DNA of 57,898 nucleotides from a virus, in the IMG/VR virus record IMGVR_UViG_3300033273_000437, positions 1 through 57,898 of that record. One strand, given 5' to 3'. Of the stretch, positions 3,113 to 26,304 are shown in pieces. Positions within the stretch are counted from its first letter, which is position 1; every line of letters starts with the position of its first letter. Position numbers and translations under genes: made by a program. The notes beneath the pieces are model-generated. The model was not told the DNA's origin, searched no databases, and saw only the letters and a list, made by a program, of their open reading frames with translations.

Positions 3113-4030
3113 TTAAAACGTGCCCCCGTCGAGAGTGACGTTATCGATGGTGTTGTTGGCACCAGTAATTGCCACGTTTGACATCACCCGAGATGCGTTC
3201 AGCACCTGAGTGTTGGCAATCATGAATGTGCCACTGTTGGTGATGTTGATCGCCTGGTTAAACGTCCACGCACTAGTGGCGCTGTACCAAGTGATCTCTT
3301 TGTTCGTGGCTCCAGCCAAGGTCAAGCCACCACCGTTGGCGGTGACGTCGGTCGGAGTAGCGGTGTCACCAAGCAGGAGGTTCTTGTCCTCCACTCGGAC
3401 CTCTGTCGAGGACAGCGTTGTCAGGGTGCCATTAACGGTCAAGTCCCCTGTCACCACAAGGTCATTGCCGATGGTGACGTCGTTCGGCAGACCAACAGTG
3501 ATCGTGGTGCCAGTGTTGCTGACTTCCACTTCATTGGCAGTGCCCTGGACGGTCATCGACCCACCCAGGCTCAGGGTCGCACCATTAACCGTGATGTCGC
3601 TGTTGGACAGCGAGCTATTAGGGATGCCAGATAGTGCAACTTCACCAGTGGTGGTGTTGTAAGTGACGCCAGACCCAGTGGTAGCGCTAATTGCTGCTCG
3701 GGCGCGGGTGTCTGTGTAGTACAGGTTGTTGGCACCTTCGCCAACGTCATCGGTGTCCAGGCCAACAATCGTGGCTGCACTAAAGGTCAGCGTGCCGGTG
3801 AACGTCTTGTCACCTGCGATGGTCTGAGTGCCACCCAGGTTGGCGTAGGCACCAGCGCCTGCAATTGCGACCACACTGGTCGCCACACCAGAACCGTTAT
3901 CGCCATAGCCGTAGTACAGCGTGTTATCGCTGGCTACTTCGTTGTATGCAAGCTCACCACTCTTGAGCGATGTCGGTGCGCCTGCACTGCCGCTACTTGC
4001 GCGGCGTTTGATTTTAAAAGTTACTGCCAT
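3113..4030 (-). CDS. Tail fibre / structural protein (305 aa)
   Basis: Starts MAVTFKIKRRASSGSAGAPT followed by SLKSGELAYNEV, the same anchoring pattern as the next gene. The body is an extended Thr/Gly/Asn-rich beta repeat region with the NNLYYTDTRARAAIS motif common in cyanophage and other marine phage fibre proteins, then alternating V/T strands (TIGNDLVVTGDLTVNGTLTT) expected of a trimeric beta-helix. There is no catalytic motif. Its ATG shares one base with the stop of the preceding gene (TAATG). Confidence 0.65.
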   Translation of the reverse strand: MAVTFKIKRRASSGSAGAPTSLKSGELAYNEVASDNTLYYGYGDNGSGVATSVVAIAGAGAYANLGGTQTIAGDKTFTGTLTFSAATIVGLDTDDVGEGANNLYYTDTRARAAISATTGSGVTYNTTTGEVALSGIPNSSLSNSDITVNGATLSLGGSMTVQGTANEVEVSNTGTTITVGLPNDVTIGNDLVVTGDLTVNGTLTTLSSTEVRVEDKNLLLGDTATPTDVTANGGGLTLAGATNKEITWYSATSAWTFNQAINITNSGTFMIANTQVLNASRVMSNVAITGANNTIDNVTLDGGTF

Positions 4031-4320
4031 TAGAAGGCACCTCCATACAGGGTCAGATCATCATCTAGAACGTCAGTCGGCGTGAATACCGATCCGTTCC
4101 ATTCCAGAACTTTTCCTTGGTCCCCTGATGTCAGGGCATCAATTGCAGCGGTATCCATAAAAGAACTACCGGCAAATGAGGGGCCTTGCGGTCCCGTTGC
4201 CGCTACAGAAACAACATTCGTCGAAGGAGAACGTGTAACTGTAACTTGATTGTCGGTCTCTGTTACTCGAACAACGCTAGACAGCGCCGGAGTTACCTGA
4301 ACTTTCGCTTCGTTACTCAT
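4030..4320 (-). CDS. Putative fibre-module protein with collagen-like GPQGP turn (96 aa)
   Basis: The N-terminal half is Val/Thr-rich (VTPALSSVVRVTETDNQVTV), followed by a single GPQGP and a C-terminal DQGKVLEWNGSVFTPT segment that resembles tip sequences of phage fibres. Both ends overlap neighbours by one base (TAATG), so it is translated within the minus-strand fibre operon. The exact role is unknown. Confidence 0.55.
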   Translation of the reverse strand: MSNEAKVQVTPALSSVVRVTETDNQVTVTRSPSTNVVSVAATGPQGPSFAGSSFMDTAAIDALTSGDQGKVLEWNGSVFTPTDVLDDDLTLYGGAF

Positions 4321-4658
4321 TACACTCCAGTAAATCCAGGGTCAAACAGAGCCCTACCTTGCAGCAAATAGTACTTATCACCACCAGGCTCGGTGATCAT
4401 TACGTCGTACTGGCTCTCCTCAGTGATAGCAGCGGTTGTGGACGCAGCTAACTTAATCCTGAATTTGCCAATTGACTGATCAACCCAGCTCGTGATGAAA
4501 GTCGCAACTGTTGCAGTATTAAGGCGATTGACTAGCTTTCCTGCAACTGAGTAGCCAGCCATATTCACACCATTACCGTTGGAATCCTTGTACTGGAGAT
4601 CCAGTGAGAAGGTTGCCCCTTGGTGAATAGTAATGTCGTAATTACCCGGCTCAATCAC
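4320..4658 (-). CDS. Putative baseplate/fibre protein with immunoglobulin-like fold (112 aa)
   Basis: First gene of the minus-strand block. MIEPGNYDITIHQGATFSLD, then YKDSNGNGVNMAGYSVAGKL, then YDVMITEPGGDKYYLLQGRA and FDPGFTGV, is the pattern of small all-beta phage proteins (BppU-like or gp-wedge-like) that describe a polymer backbone with a dynein-like 'qG.Tf.l...' start. Role is inferred from context and composition. The 76 bases to the divergent lysis gene must hold the promoters of both directions; only AT-rich sequence (TATATT at 4706-4711) is visible. Confidence 0.5.
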   Translation of the reverse strand: MIEPGNYDITIHQGATFSLDLQYKDSNGNGVNMAGYSVAGKLVNRLNTATVATFITSWVDQSIGKFRIKLAASTTAAITEESQYDVMITEPGGDKYYLLQGRALFDPGFTGV

Positions 4659-4734
4659 AGTTATAAAAGCCAGTCTTCGTATTCAGTTTAAGATATCTGA
4701 TCGATTATATTGGGTAAAAGAGCACTTTCATAGC

Positions 4735-5016
4735 GTGGAACCTGTACTTCCGCTGAGCTTAGTGCTCAGTGTCGTGGGTGGGGCTGCTTCGGCATTCCTA
4801 ACACTTGGACGCAAATTCGAGACTATTGATCAAAAGCATCAAAACCACATCCATCTAGTAGATCAACGTATGGATGCAATTGAGTTGCGTCTGGCAAAGG
4901 ATTACGTTGACAAGGAAGATTTGGGAATGATCCTTAAGCGTTTGGATGACCGCATCGACAGGATGGACTATAAGTTGGATCAAATTCTTATTGGGTACAA
5001 TAAAAACGCAAAGTAG
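4735..5016 (+). CDS. Membrane-anchored coiled-coil protein, possible spanin/holin accessory (93 aa)
   Basis: GTG start. One N-terminal membrane helix (residues about 4-23, LPLSLVLSVVGGAASAFLTL) is followed by a charged helix with heptad-like spacing (residues 30-85, including DQRMDAIELRL and LDDRIDRMDYKLDQIL). An N-in membrane anchor plus periplasmic coiled coil is the architecture of inner-membrane spanins and of small phage holin accessories. It is first in the lysis block, directly before a holin-like gene and the endolysin. No outer-membrane spanin partner is certain; the lipoprotein-like gene at 6585 is a candidate. Confidence 0.55.
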   Translation: MEPVLPLSLVLSVVGGAASAFLTLGRKFETIDQKHQNHIHLVDQRMDAIELRLAKDYVDKEDLGMILKRLDDRIDRMDYKLDQILIGYNKNAK

Positions 5017-5459: not shown

Positions 5460-6606
5460 GCTCGCTGACTTTTTCCGTTTTTACGACCCAAGCAACAAAC
5501 AGCATGTTGCGGCAGTCCTTAGGCTTCAAGATGACCTTGAAGAGACGGACCCCAGGCTTGTCTGTGATGATGCGGAATGGGTGAAGCTTTTTCGCACGCC
5601 CCTAGAGCAGCAGCCAGTCTCGGAGAAAGTTGATAACAGCTGGGGAGGTATCGTCACAGCTGCTCGTAACGCAGGGGCTAAGTTTCCTGAACTACTGGCC
5701 GCTCAGTGGGCACTTGAGAGCGGTTTTGGTAAGTACCCCTCAGGCACATGGAATTACTGGGGAGTCAAAGGCGGTGGACGCCGTCCGGAAATTACCTGTA
5801 CTCGTAAAGAAACTACTGAGTACATCAATGGTGAATGGATTACGACTTGCGCTTGGTTTAAGAACTTCGCCAGCATTGAAGAAGGGGCAAGCTACGTCGT
5901 AAACCGTTGGTACAAAGATTTTGAGCGCCACAAGGGTGTTAATCGGGCAAACAGCCGCGATCAGGCAGCGCACCTTCTTGTAGAAGAAGGGTACGCAACT
6001 GACCCTAAATATGCTGACAAGCTTATTGACCTTATGGATCAATATAGTCAGCCGCTATCTGCTCAAGATGGTTTAAGCGTTGAGTTACAGGTTCCTTATT
6101 TATCTCAGATTGATTCGGACACAGATCAAGGATTTCGCATGTGCTTCGCTAGCTCCTGCGCTATGGCCCTCGATTATTTGTGCCCTGGTGTCCTTAAAGG
6201 TCATAAGGATGATTTCTACCTTGAGAGGGTAAACGAATACGGCGATACGACCGATCCTTATGCCCAGCTTTACGCTTTAGAAAGTTTTGGACTTGAAGCT
6301 AATTTCCGTCAAGACTTAACGCTCGCCGATGTTAAAGATCAGTTGACCAAGGGATACCCAGTTCCAATTGGAGTACTTCATCAAGGCCCTAGTTCAGCAC
6401 CGGTTGGTGGTGGACATTGGATTACTCTTGTTGGTTTTGACGAAGATGGCTTAATCGTCAACGATCCCAATGGCGAGATGGATGTGCTCAACGGTTCATA
6501 CGTTAATCACACCAATGGTGACCACATCAGGTATTCCTATCAAAACCTTTTGCCACGCTGGTGTGTTGAAGGTGAGGGTTCTGGATGGGGAATTATTATC
6601 AAGTAA
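5437..6606 (+). CDS. Endolysin: glucosaminidase-type N-domain plus C39-like cysteine peptidase C-domain
   Basis: 389 residues with two catalytic domains. Residues about 65-205 match the endo-beta-N-acetylglucosaminidase/muramidase family (GH73 type): AAQWALESGFGKYPSGTWN with E94 as the likely catalytic acid, then NYWGVKG. Residues about 215-389 match papain-like C39 peptidases: VPYLSQIDSDTDQGFRMCFA (C236), GGHWITLVGF (H327) and VNDPNG (D343). The predicted role is cutting both glycan and peptide parts of peptidoglycan at lysis. No signal peptide is seen, so release should depend on the holin-like gene upstream. Confidence 0.85.
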   Translation: MTTFPAGKLADFFRFYDPSNKQHVAAVLRLQDDLEETDPRLVCDDAEWVKLFRTPLEQQPVSEKVDNSWGGIVTAARNAGAKFPELLAAQWALESGFGKYPSGTWNYWGVKGGGRRPEITCTRKETTEYINGEWITTCAWFKNFASIEEGASYVVNRWYKDFERHKGVNRANSRDQAAHLLVEEGYATDPKYADKLIDLMDQYSQPLSAQDGLSVELQVPYLSQIDSDTDQGFRMCFASSCAMALDYLCPGVLKGHKDDFYLERVNEYGDTTDPYAQLYALESFGLEANFRQDLTLADVKDQLTKGYPVPIGVLHQGPSSAPVGGGHWITLVGFDEDGLIVNDPNGEMDVLNGSYVNHTNGDHIRYSYQNLLPRWCVEGEGSGWGIIIK

Positions 6607-22919: not shown

Positions 22920-23660
22920 TTGCCACAGACAGGTCAGTTTTATATCTATTGCTATTTAGATGAGGCTCTAGAACCCTACTACATCGGCAAAGGTAAGGGT
23001 TATAGGGCTTGGACTAAGCACACCACAGTAGAAGTCCCACCTGAAGATAGGATTATAATCGTGATGGACGGTCTCGATGAGGAGACCGCTCTTAGGTGCG
23101 AGAAGACGTGCATCGACTTCTACGGTCGTGAGAAGGATGGAGGCACATTGAAGAATGTGCATCCAGGTGGAACTATCGGTTTCCCTACAGGGGAAGAACA
23201 CCATCTTTTCGGTAAATCCGGTTTTGAACATCCTGTATGTGGGATGACAGGCCCTATGCAAGGACGCACAGGCTCGAAGCATCCGTCCTACGGAACTACA
23301 GGAGCACTAAAAGGGCGAACAGGAGCAAAGCACCCTACAAGTAAGAAGTACCGGCTGACTTCTCCTACTGGAGAAAACTTTGAAATCCATGGCCTGTCAG
23401 CCTTTTGCTGTGAACACGGATTAAATCCGACTTATATGAGCGCCGTTGCTCATGGCAGAATGAGCGACCACAAAGGCTGGAAGTGCGAGTTGTTAGAAAC
23501 TAAACTGCGTATCGCCACTTCGCCGTCAGGAGAACGGTTTGAGGTGCGAAATCTCAGTGAGTTTTGTAAGAAACACGGTCTCAGACCCTCTGGAATGACC
23601 AACGTTTCTATCGGCAGAGCCAAGACTCATAAGGGTTGGAGATACGAAAATATCACTTAA
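22920..23660 (+). CDS. GIY-YIG homing endonuclease with NUMOD repeats
   Basis: 246 residues, TTG start (no ATG/GTG nearby in frame). Catalytic domain: FYIYCYLDEALEPYYIGKGK with the GIY- and YIG-type strands, then an R and a catalytic Glu region (ALRCEKTCIDFYGR). The C-terminal part has NUMOD3-like short repeats (GKSGFEHPVCGMTGPMQGRT, GSKHPSYGTTGALKGRTGAK) and two LS.FC..HGL..S.M helix units. It is probably mobile and sits directly upstream of the large structured RNA region. Confidence 0.88.
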   Translation: MPQTGQFYIYCYLDEALEPYYIGKGKGYRAWTKHTTVEVPPEDRIIIVMDGLDEETALRCEKTCIDFYGREKDGGTLKNVHPGGTIGFPTGEEHHLFGKSGFEHPVCGMTGPMQGRTGSKHPSYGTTGALKGRTGAKHPTSKKYRLTSPTGENFEIHGLSAFCCEHGLNPTYMSAVAHGRMSDHKGWKCELLETKLRIATSPSGERFEVRNLSEFCKKHGLRPSGMTNVSIGRAKTHKGWRYENIT

Positions 23661-24320
23661 AAAGCCAAATCTATGTTTCTAGGTATGTATATTTAATTAT
23701 GCGGGGACATAGTAAGTATATAAATCATATTTAACTATCTAATAGTTATTAGCTAAGAGTTAGGAAAGTAATAATTAGGTCCCCGCTATTTATTACTTAA
23801 CAGATTGTTGCTTGATATTGACGGATCGGGGGGTTTCATGGTATTTCGCGGGCGCTGCGCGGTTCCTTTATTGGGTCCGACTGGCTGGAGAGTGTGCCAA
23901 TCAAATAGGTGGCACAGAATATGGTGTCCTGTCCTGAAATGGATTAGAAAGGGTTCAACCAAACGAGGTCAGCCCAAACGACTCAACCAAGACGCCACAA
24001 AACGGCGACATAAGGCACGCGGAACCCGCGCAGTTAGTCCGATTCTCCCGACCTTATGGGAACCACGGAGAGACGACGGCGACAGGTCCACACGGTCTAG
24101 ACCAACTGGTAGCAAGTGCTGGCAGGTTTAGAGGGCAAAACGTAGGCGCGCCGTATGGGCAGCTGATTTTATCATCCCGGATCTGTCAGGAACTACTAGA
24201 GGTTGGACTTTCAATAAATAATATTTAGGACTGCAATTTACGCGATAGGTGTGGTGTATCTCAACAGCACTGAAACGTATCTAATGCGGGCCAGGGTAAC
24301 TAATCATCCCTTCAGATTTA

Positions 24321-24427
24321 GCGCAAGCTGTATCTAACAGAAAGGAGTGAATAGATAGGTTTTCTCGGTGTATATCAGCAGATTAAATCTATCTTTTCAC
24401 AATCAGGTTCAAATCCTGTCTTGCGTT
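24321..24427 (+). ncRNA. tRNA-like 3' domain of the structured RNA
   Basis: GCGCAAG (24321-24327) pairs with CTTGCGT (24420-24426; first pair G-U) as a 7-bp acceptor stem. A tRNA T-arm follows the rules: CAGG-TTCAAAT-CCTG at 24404-24418, one base before the 3' acceptor strand. In between are a small hairpin CTGT/ACAG (24328-24340) where a D-arm would be and a 10-bp stem (24353-24362/24385-24394) with a 22-base loop instead of an anticodon arm. The 107-nt length and missing anticodon loop argue against a normal tRNA; it resembles a tmRNA-type tRNA-like domain or a decayed tRNA. Confidence 0.55.
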
Positions 24428-24429
24428 AT

Positions 24430-24455
24430 TGCCACTTTTTAGTGGCACTTTTTCT
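24430..24455 (+). terminator. Rho-independent terminator of the structured RNA
   Basis: TGCCACT/AGTGGCA (24430-24436 with 24441-24447), loop TTTT, followed by CTTTTTCTCTCTC. The stem begins 3 bases after the tRNA-like acceptor stem. The T/C tail merges into the first TCTCTCTCACC leader motif of the downstream small-gene block. Confidence 0.8.
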
Positions 24456-24493
24456 CTCTCTCACCTTACAAGCTGTGCATCCAGCATCTCATC

Positions 24494-25240
24494 ATGAACT
24501 TCACACAATTTCTCAATTTCTCTCACGGCAATGCAAAGCTCAAGAAGAGACTAATCTTTTCTCTTCCGGCAGGTAAGACATGTCCTGGCGCTTTATTCTG
24601 TAAGTCTTTTGCTGTTGTTCAGCCAGACGGAAAGCGTAGGATTCAAGATGGCAAAGACACAAAGTTTCGTTGCTTTGCTGCATCTTCTGAGGTTCAATAT
24701 GACGCAGTTTATAACTTGAGAGCTACAAATATGGAGTTGTTGATGCAGTCAGTTATCAACGGTTCAATGGCTGATCTTATCGATGCAAGTATTCAGCATC
24801 ATAGACGCAAGAATGAGAAGCTGGTTCGTATTCATGAAAGTGGAGATATGTTCTCCCTGGGCTATCTATTGGCCTGGATCGAAGTTGCAAAGCGCAATCC
24901 AGATATGATCTTTTACTGTTTCAGTAAGTCTCTGGATCTTTTCTTGGGTCTTGAATTGCCTAGCAATTTCTACCTAACTGCATCTAAAGGTGGAAAGTTT
25001 GATTATCTGATTGACGAGGGTCATTTCCCTCGTTATTCCGTTGTGGTCAAGACTGAAGAAGAAGCAGCCGCTTTAGGTCTTGAGATTGATCACGATGACA
25101 GCCACTGTTTAGGTGACAAACCCTTTGCACTTCTTGTGCATGGGACTCAACCTAAAGGTTCTGATTGGGGTAAAGCTATCTTTACCCGTCGTAAAGCTGG
25201 CAAGTTCACAGGCTATAGCTCTAAAAAAGCTGCTGTCTGA
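24494..25240 (+). CDS. GP88 family phage protein
   Basis: 248 residues. KTCPGALFCKSFAVVQPDGK, a following C-F-AASSEVQYDAVYNLRATN, RIHESGDMFSLGYLLAWIEV and YCFSKSLDLFLGLELPSNF fit the phage gene-product-88 family first named in mycobacteriophages. The conserved Cys/His/Asp residues (CPGAxFC, HESGD) suggest metal or enzymatic function, but none is established to my knowledge. First gene after the structured RNA, preceded by the TCTCTCTCACC leader 29 bases before its ATG. Confidence 0.75.
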   Translation: MNFTQFLNFSHGNAKLKKRLIFSLPAGKTCPGALFCKSFAVVQPDGKRRIQDGKDTKFRCFAASSEVQYDAVYNLRATNMELLMQSVINGSMADLIDASIQHHRRKNEKLVRIHESGDMFSLGYLLAWIEVAKRNPDMIFYCFSKSLDLFLGLELPSNFYLTASKGGKFDYLIDEGHFPRYSVVVKTEEEAAALGLEIDHDDSHCLGDKPFALLVHGTQPKGSDWGKAIFTRRKAGKFTGYSSKKAAV

Positions 25241-25766: not shown

Positions 25767-25960
25767 TTCACATCACTCCCAAATCTTCAAAAGCAAAGAA
25801 TCGTCTTGCTAATCAGATGAATAACGATCCACGAATGGTGATTGAACAGGTCAACGACACTCACATCTTTGCAGTGTCTGTATCTGGTTCTTATTGCTGT
25901 TGGATTCAACACTCAAACGATCCACATTTTGAATACCTACACACACTTCCTGAGCTATGA
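25763..25960 (+). CDS. Small protein of unknown function (65 aa)
   Basis: ATG 25763 overlaps the previous stop (ATGA) and its own stop overlaps the next ATG in the same way, giving a coupled chain. MIHITPKSSKAKNRLANQMN, then DPRMVIEQVNDTHIFAVSVS and GSYCCWIQHSNDPHFEYL suggests a small helix plus beta-sheet domain. No family recognised. Confidence 0.6.
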   Translation: MIHITPKSSKAKNRLANQMNNDPRMVIEQVNDTHIFAVSVSGSYCCWIQHSNDPHFEYLHTLPEL

Positions 25961-26304
25961 AAGTCCGCGTTTATTACAACCTCACAAAGCACATCTGGAG
26001 TGTGCAGAAGCATGTTCCAGGTAAGGGTTGGAGAGTTGCAGGACATCTCCCACGTCTTGCACTCAATAACGTCCAAACTGTAGTTAATGCCTACGGCCAG
26101 CAACGAACAAGGACAGAGGGTAAGAAGTACGTTCACGCCTTTTTAGAAGGTGAGATCTGTACATCTGCCTTTTCTGTTACTCCTTCCCACAGACGCATCA
26201 CATACAACCCACAACGTGACAACACGTTTGTGTGGAAGCACAACGGCGAGGAGTTCACATCTTCTCATCAGGTTGTCTTAACCGACAACGCATACGCTCT
26301 CTGA
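25957..26304 (+). CDS. Conserved-type phage protein (115 aa)
   Basis: MKVRVYYNLTKHIWSVQKHV, then GWRVAGHLPRLALNNVQTVV, then GKKYVHAFLEGEIC and RRITYNPQRDNTFVWKHNGE has the pattern of a widespread small phage family (VYYNLxKxxxSV at the start, R..KNVHA.v.G in the middle, YNPy....F at the end), known to me only as hypothetical proteins. Coupled to the upstream gene by ATGA. Confidence 0.65.
   Translation: MKVRVYYNLTKHIWSVQKHVPGKGWRVAGHLPRLALNNVQTVVNAYGQQRTRTEGKKYVHAFLEGEICTSAFSVTPSHRRITYNPQRDNTFVWKHNGEEFTSSHQVVLTDNAYAL

Follow-up and report, generated by a model that had tools for sequence, protein, structure and literature searches.

A large structured noncoding RNA with a tRNA-like 3′ end and exchangeable halves in phages

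Comparison with related viruses identifies a gap of 833 nt (23661-24493) in the window, by which we mean the whole 57,898-nt stretch of viral DNA analyzed here (IMG/VR record IMGVR_UViG_3300033273_000437), as the site of a real structured noncoding RNA gene that closes with a covarying tRNA-like domain and an intrinsic terminator. The comparatively supported RNA lies at about 23990-24455 on the plus strand and is shorter than the 23701-24455 proposed in an earlier note made from the sequence alone; its length would be at least about 465 nt and possibly about 610 nt, if counted from about 23848. As judged from its relatives, the RNA is modular, with 5′ and 3′ halves swapped between phages, and we place it, as a putative new family, among the large phage RNAs, a loose grouping in which its tRNA-like terminus is unusual.

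Results

Genomic setting and relatives of the RNA

The gap is bounded by an HNH/NUMOD homing-type endonuclease ORF (22920-23660, plus strand; phrog_2081 HNH, E 7.8e-20, and phrog_314 homing endonuclease), which is the direct upstream neighbour of the RNA and stands outside it, and by a GP88-family gene (24494-25240, plus strand; PF17338, E 3.7e-42). The earlier note had described some 830 bases without a credible ORF and had named a conserved protein encoded there as a finding that would speak against an RNA. Comparison with relatives yielded no conserved ORF in the gap: the longest (108 aa, 23805-24131) is matched by relatives in fragments only, and a 58-aa ORF on the antisense strand is interrupted by an in-frame stop codon in the relative L084, both being broken or missing among the relatives. 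Folding of the gap as a single sequence gave z -4.4 for the plus strand and z -1.6 for the antisense strand, each against 20 shuffles.

A host among marine bacteria, probably cyanobacteria, is inferred because the portal protein of the window resembles that of Synechococcus phage S-CBS4 (37% identity) and those of IMG/VR contigs (75-89%). The window also holds, at 25957-26304, a gene of the Pfam family Phage_L5_gp82, which is named after mycobacteriophage L5, and GP88-type genes occur in phages of mycobacterium, streptomyces and klebsiella as well as cyanobacterium.

When the region was searched by blastn against IMG/VR relatives, the 3′ part (query 343-830) was matched by L050/L087 at 75% and L045/L085 at 73%, and the 5′ part by L039/L084 at 84% (query 7-240, the 5′ 234 nt) and L046/L086 at 72% (query 8-114). 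A further full homolog, L097, was reached through a search with the neighbouring HNH gene. Over 23990-24455, identity to the window is 75% for L087, 73% for L085 and 72% for L097, and relatives are separated by indels of 1-2 nt. Each genome carrying the RNA gave one match. Pattern scans for more homologs returned only near-identical copies of those already found; degenerate pattern-scan matches (L182-L338) were treated as chance and left out. Among 50,697 phage records, blastn of the region gave nothing beyond matches of 26-33 nt attributable to chance, and thus no relative; the same was true of L087, L084, L119 and L128 as queries.

The relatives differ in which half they share. L084 has the 5′ 234 nt in common with the window and a different 3′ part, and L086 has its 5′ half in common with L097 and is without the tRNA-like end; it is because these two carry a different 3′ half that the RNA is regarded as modular. 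In relatives whose contigs are long enough, the locus runs from an HNH_5 gene through the RNA and a TC-rich leader containing AAGCTGTGCAT to a start codon. The corresponding leader of the window, CAAGCTGTGCATCCAGCA (24469-24486, plus strand), lies outside the RNA and ahead of the next start codon; it is conserved ahead of the next gene in relatives and precedes two genes in L084. A leader of the form TCTCTCACC..CAAGCTGTGCATYCAGCA with a small hairpin was also seen before start codons in L084 (two genes), L085, L086, L087, L097 and L037. The HNH/NUMOD ORF of the window has no match at the loci of L084, L085 and L086, in which HNH_5 precedes the RNA region, and the place next to the RNA on its upstream side is taken in L097 by an ORF judged by eye to be GIY-YIG-like (about 4370-4990). 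This one spot is thus shared by homing-type endonucleases that seem to differ in kind between the window (HNH/NUMOD) and L097, which suggests a recombination hotspot that could drive module exchange.

In the first set of GP88 relatives (L001-L033), the RNA was found by neither blastn nor nhmmer, and most of the faint hits trace to a 24-bp palindrome, TGTGCCA-N10-TGGCACA, that occurs once in the window, inside the RNA region (23893-23916, plus strand). The looser form TGTGNCA-N10-TGNCACA recurs often between genes in the GP88-carrying contigs L001-L029 and in Synechococcus phage S-SRM01 (L340), carriers including L001, L004, L005, L011, L021, L026 and L340; copies sometimes overlap stop codons and are followed by a GC-rich hairpin. 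This palindrome is possibly an operator or a 3′-end hairpin.

Covariation and core structure

Comparative folding, which the earlier note had called for, was run on an alignment (A3) of window 23990-24455 with L085, L087 and L097, four sequences in all. The predicted structure has 137 pairs, 29 of them with compensatory changes. After removal of five doubtful pairs, 95.4% of cells in the remaining 132 pairs are paired (89.5 in shuffles), and 29 of the 132 are changed on both sides as against 13.1 ± 2.5 in shuffles, a count reached by none of 500 shuffles; since the tested structure was predicted from the alignment on which it was counted, it is favoured against both types of control. Controls in which the structure was slid along the alignment gave 2-9 compensatory pairs. 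The cells changed on both sides number 35, and the independent events are fewer than this, L085 and L097 being mutually close. Alifold energy was -121.6 compared with -72.0 ± 6.1 for column shuffles (z -8.1), and only -102.5 for the antisense alignment. Homology, covariation and alifold together delimit a structured RNA of core, tRNA-like domain and terminator at 23990-24455.

The core is a multi-helix domain at 24014-24292 (helices 2-12 of the covariation model) with the closing stem GGCACGC/GCGGGCC (24014-24020 with 24286-24292). Within it, helices 3 to 5 (24021-24089) contain 8 pairs with compensatory changes; helix 3 (24021-24039/24072-24089) and helix 4 are among those that covary, and the next stem of this group pairs 24044-24050 with 24064-24071. 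The long helix 7 (24099-24129/24179-24209) contains a further 8 pairs with compensatory changes. The 12-bp long-range stem to which the earlier note had drawn attention (13 bp by recount; 23855-23866/24021-24033, one bulge) is present in the window but is not conserved, and it clashes with covarying helix 3, whose 5′ arm is its 3′ arm. It is stronger than in shuffles in the window only, lies at chance level in L085 and L087, and is reached by 15% of shuffles in L097. We reject it as a conserved feature; it may be an alternative fold in the phage of the window.

The tRNA-like domain and terminator

The tRNA-like fold was predicted exactly by the earlier note, at 24321-24426 on the plus strand, and corresponds to helices 14-18 of the covariation model. 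Its 7-bp acceptor-like stem is joined by a small D-like arm, by a long arm that stands where a tRNA has its anticodon arm (24346-24360/24387-24400; its loop region, CGGTGTATATCARCAG, is conserved) and by a T-arm whose loop is TTCAAAT (TCAGG-TTCAAAT-CCTGT, 24403-24419). The acceptor-like stem is GCGCAAG/CTTGCGT in the window and GCACAAG/CTTGTGT in relatives; the T-stem becomes GTGGG/CCCAC or GTAGG/CCTAC. Compensatory pairs number 3 in the acceptor, 7 in the long arm, 1 in the inner helix and 2 in the T-stem, so that a 7-bp acceptor-like stem stands beside a T-arm with a TTCRANN loop, both with covariation. Position +1 of the acceptor-like stem is G in all members, and most tRNAs have G at +1. 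The domain is without a 7-nt anticodon loop and without an encoded CCA, and neither ARAGORN nor Rfam calls a canonical tRNA at 24321-24426.

Three nucleotides after this domain begins the intrinsic terminator, likewise anticipated by the note (TGCCACT-TTTT-AGTGGCA, then CTTTTTCTCT; 24430-24447, plus strand). Its stem is kept in L085, L087 and L097.

Upstream elements and transcript start

A promoter-like element, TATGTATATTTAATTA (23684-23699, plus strand), is conserved in relatives, being kept in L084, L085, L086, L095 and L101 and present as a variant in L097; its core, TATGTATATTTA, occurs once in the window against an expectation of 0.06. Just behind it is a hairpin region (23701-23786, plus strand) closed by GCGGGGAC (23701-23708) and GTCCCCGC (23779-23786). 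The earlier note had read this as a 5′ domain of the RNA, beginning right behind a TATATT box. The hairpin is present in the window, and in L084, where its arms are GCGGGGGC/GCCCCCGC, one compensatory change replaces A-U by G-C; but L085, L086 and L097 have unrelated sequence there, and because of this we regard it as a separate, exchangeable upstream element.

An architecture in one piece from the TATATT box is not supported. A second promoter-like element lies downstream (23818-23847, plus strand), read by eye as TTGACG (23818-23823) followed by the weak -10 GGTATTTC, with GGTAT in the window. By eye, TTGAC[AGT] followed at 16-18 nt by GGTA is found in the window and in L084, L085, L086 and L097; an automatic promoter scan calls neither promoter-like site. 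The segment GCGCGGTTCCTTTA (23857-23870, plus strand), a possible 5′ end region of the RNA, is common, with small changes, to L085, L086, L097 and the T7-like phages L147 and L152. The transcript may start near 23850 rather than 23700, although either promoter-like site could serve as its start.

A second set of RNAs in T7-like phages

A search with the other GP88-type protein led to contigs with noncoding regions of roughly 500-700 nt, and in seven of these (L118, L119, L123, L141, L147, L152 and L155) the region ends in a shorter tRNA-like fold: an acceptor-like stem, an AGC-hairpin and a T-arm-like hairpin, then TATT and a hairpin. The acceptor covaries, and 14 cells of the fold are changed on both sides, against 4.2 ± 1.7 in shuffles. 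Further upstream, in a domain aligned from five contigs, 12 of 25 predicted pairs have compensatory changes. L147 and L152 have the promoter-proximal GCGCGGTTCCTTT in common with the window. Among the contigs checked, a terminase gene lies upstream in L118, L119, L147 and L155, L118 encodes a T7-type RNA polymerase, and both L118 and L147 encode an integrase; no Rfam family was matched in those second-set contigs checked. Covariance models of the window-type and T7-like-type tRNA-like ends score each other at no more than about 12 bits. What can be claimed for the two types of RNA is a common layout together with some common pieces; their common descent is unproven.

Several observations were made beside these. 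The motif CCTWGAMAAYYNAATA occurs inside noncoding regions of L118, L119, L128, L132, L141, L147, L155, L164 and L086 and, overlapping copies aside, is absent from the other viral loci compared. The model R2 matches L128, L135 and L137 at 20-21 bits, in near-identical sequences with a weak acceptor, and these tRNA-like ends are treated as candidates. In the same three contigs (L128 8880-8950, L135 3730-3820, L137 3590-3670), a T-arm and hairpin follow the stop codon of a protein gene and precede a terminator; L119 has an unconfirmed second short tRNA-like hairpin, likewise after a stop codon and before a terminator (5659-5737, E 8e-4). Such small hairpins after stop codons are a hint that tRNA-like 3′ ends may also occur on phage mRNAs. 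A blastn match of L118 to MedDCM-OCT-S28-C3 covered the upstream promoter-like stretch only, without the RNA body, and was set aside; in that Autographiviridae phage (AP013539.1, L339), promoter-like stretches resembling those of the second set are found at 3990-4250, after the terminase gene.

Discussion

Taken as a whole, these observations are probably best explained by a free-standing, scaffold-type noncoding RNA whose 3′ end is shaped or protected by a tRNA mimic. The RNA would be transcribed from a promoter just upstream, the candidates for which are weak matches, and during infection its core could act as a structural scaffold or as a platform for binding. By resembling a tRNA to the host enzymes that act on tRNAs, the 3′ domain would give the transcript a defined end that resists exonucleases. 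Cleavage by RNase P might fall where the acceptor-like stem begins, as in the separation of MALAT1 and mascRNA in animals, or the end might be trimmed by RNase Z or a 3′ exonuclease; processing by RNase P, RNase Z or CCA addition is suggested by analogy only. The domain could alternatively be a binding site for a host protein that recognizes tRNA. Phages would exchange the 5′ and 3′ halves as modules.

A role as a long 5′ leader, or riboregulator, of the downstream GP88-family gene might be suspected from the recurrence of the RNA upstream of GP88-type genes in several phage groups, but the loci were largely found by a GP88 search, so that the association is partly built in. We consider this role unlikely, since the conserved terminator and the tRNA-like end come before the gene, which has a conserved leader of its own. 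The RNA is moreover set apart from the GP88-type gene by another gene in L084 and, among T7-like phages, in L118 for example.

GOLLD and ROOL, phage-borne RNAs that have been proved to form RNA cages, invite the most direct comparison, and GOLLD occurs in phages, prophages and marine and lake metagenomes. ROOL, at about 600 nt, resembles the RNA of the window in being phage-borne and highly structured; GOLLD shares with it large size, dense structure, a phage location, separate 5′ and 3′ domains and a connection to tRNA. The tRNAs associated with GOLLD and ROOL are separate genes nearby or, in GOLLD, lie in the linker between its domains, of which the 3′ domain is universal (PMC12286853). The RNA of the window differs in that some relatives have another 3′ half but retain 5′ sequence, as do L084 and L086, and in that the tRNA mimic is its own 3′ terminus and neither a linker tRNA nor a separate tRNA gene nearby; a search of the window with ARAGORN gave neither a tRNA nor a tmRNA. 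No Rfam 15 family matched the whole window at gathering score, none matched 23600-24520 below E 0.8 under permissive filters, and the GOLLD, ROOL and OLE models gave no hit up to E 10, under permissive filters, in the window stretch and four homologs. A divergent GOLLD or ROOL RNA assembling into a cage is accordingly a very unlikely identity. The earlier note had left the choice among a member, a distant relative and a new class; a new class is favoured because clear covariation of its own accompanies the lack of a covariance-model match.

Other familiar RNAs fit less of the evidence. A group I intron, also raised by the note, is rejected: Rfam gave no intron hit, the genes on either side are intact, and the RNA itself ends in a terminator. 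Like the RNA of the window, tmRNA is large and has a tRNA-like domain, but that of tmRNA is built from both ends of the molecule, which also contains a reading frame; here the domain is contiguous at the 3′ end, and with the ARAGORN result tmRNA is set aside, as is a canonical tRNA. The nearest layout in Rfam was that of SpF41 (RF02435), a Streptococcus sRNA of about 105 nt that has the same order of acceptor-like stem, T-arm-like hairpin, acceptor strand and terminator but no large core; it aligned at 24334-24456 with 21.5 bits (E 1.1), far short of its gathering score of 52. In pneumococcus, F41 pulled down RNase Z, as did other sRNAs (PMC7196914).

The tRNA-like part taken by itself, with its T-arm and acceptor-like stem, could be what remains of a tRNA gene after decay, or an attachment site that the phage copied from a tRNA gene of its host, and two of the T7-like phages with similar elements encode an integrase. 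The window has no phrog_1-type integrase, though, and covariation between phages extends to the two strands of the acceptor, to the T-stem and to the unusual long arm, whereas a match to the host is required only in the 3′ half of an attachment site, and decay of a gene would break up its pairs; we hold this origin to be highly improbable. That the region is a chance-folding remnant of protein-coding or mobile-element sequence is scarcely credible, since the homing-type endonucleases directly upstream in the window and, by eye, in L097, and the overlapping 108-aa ORF, are set against covariation that no shuffle equalled, an unconserved ORF and indels of 1-2 nt between relatives.

A free-standing RNA with a tRNA mimic at its 3′ end would have a parallel in animal MALAT1/mascRNA, where a long noncoding RNA precedes a tRNA-like domain whose anticodon arm is altered. 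Unlike that system, the present one belongs to a bacterial virus and ends in an intrinsic terminator, and in the window type the arm is extended rather than reduced. In the open-access literature, with subscription journals mostly outside the search, we found no report of phage RNAs with tRNA-like 3′ ends.

It is possible, if somewhat doubtful as yet, that at least two unrelated lineages of DNA phages, one of S-CBS4-like tailed phages and one of T7-like phages with their own RNA polymerase, carry large modular noncoding RNAs with tRNA-mimic 3′ ends placed before a terminator. If true, this would constitute a bacterial-virus counterpart of MALAT1/mascRNA or of the tRNA-like ends of plant viruses, in which host tRNA-processing enzymes would make or protect the RNA end. 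To our knowledge, large structured RNAs for which no partner is known are very few, and a further family, in which a covarying tRNA mimic forms the RNA's own 3′ end and the halves are interchangeable, would represent a new architecture. It would also offer a direct handle on function, through processing or binding by the host tRNA machinery, and it hints that environmental phages hold more RNAs of this sort than have been catalogued.
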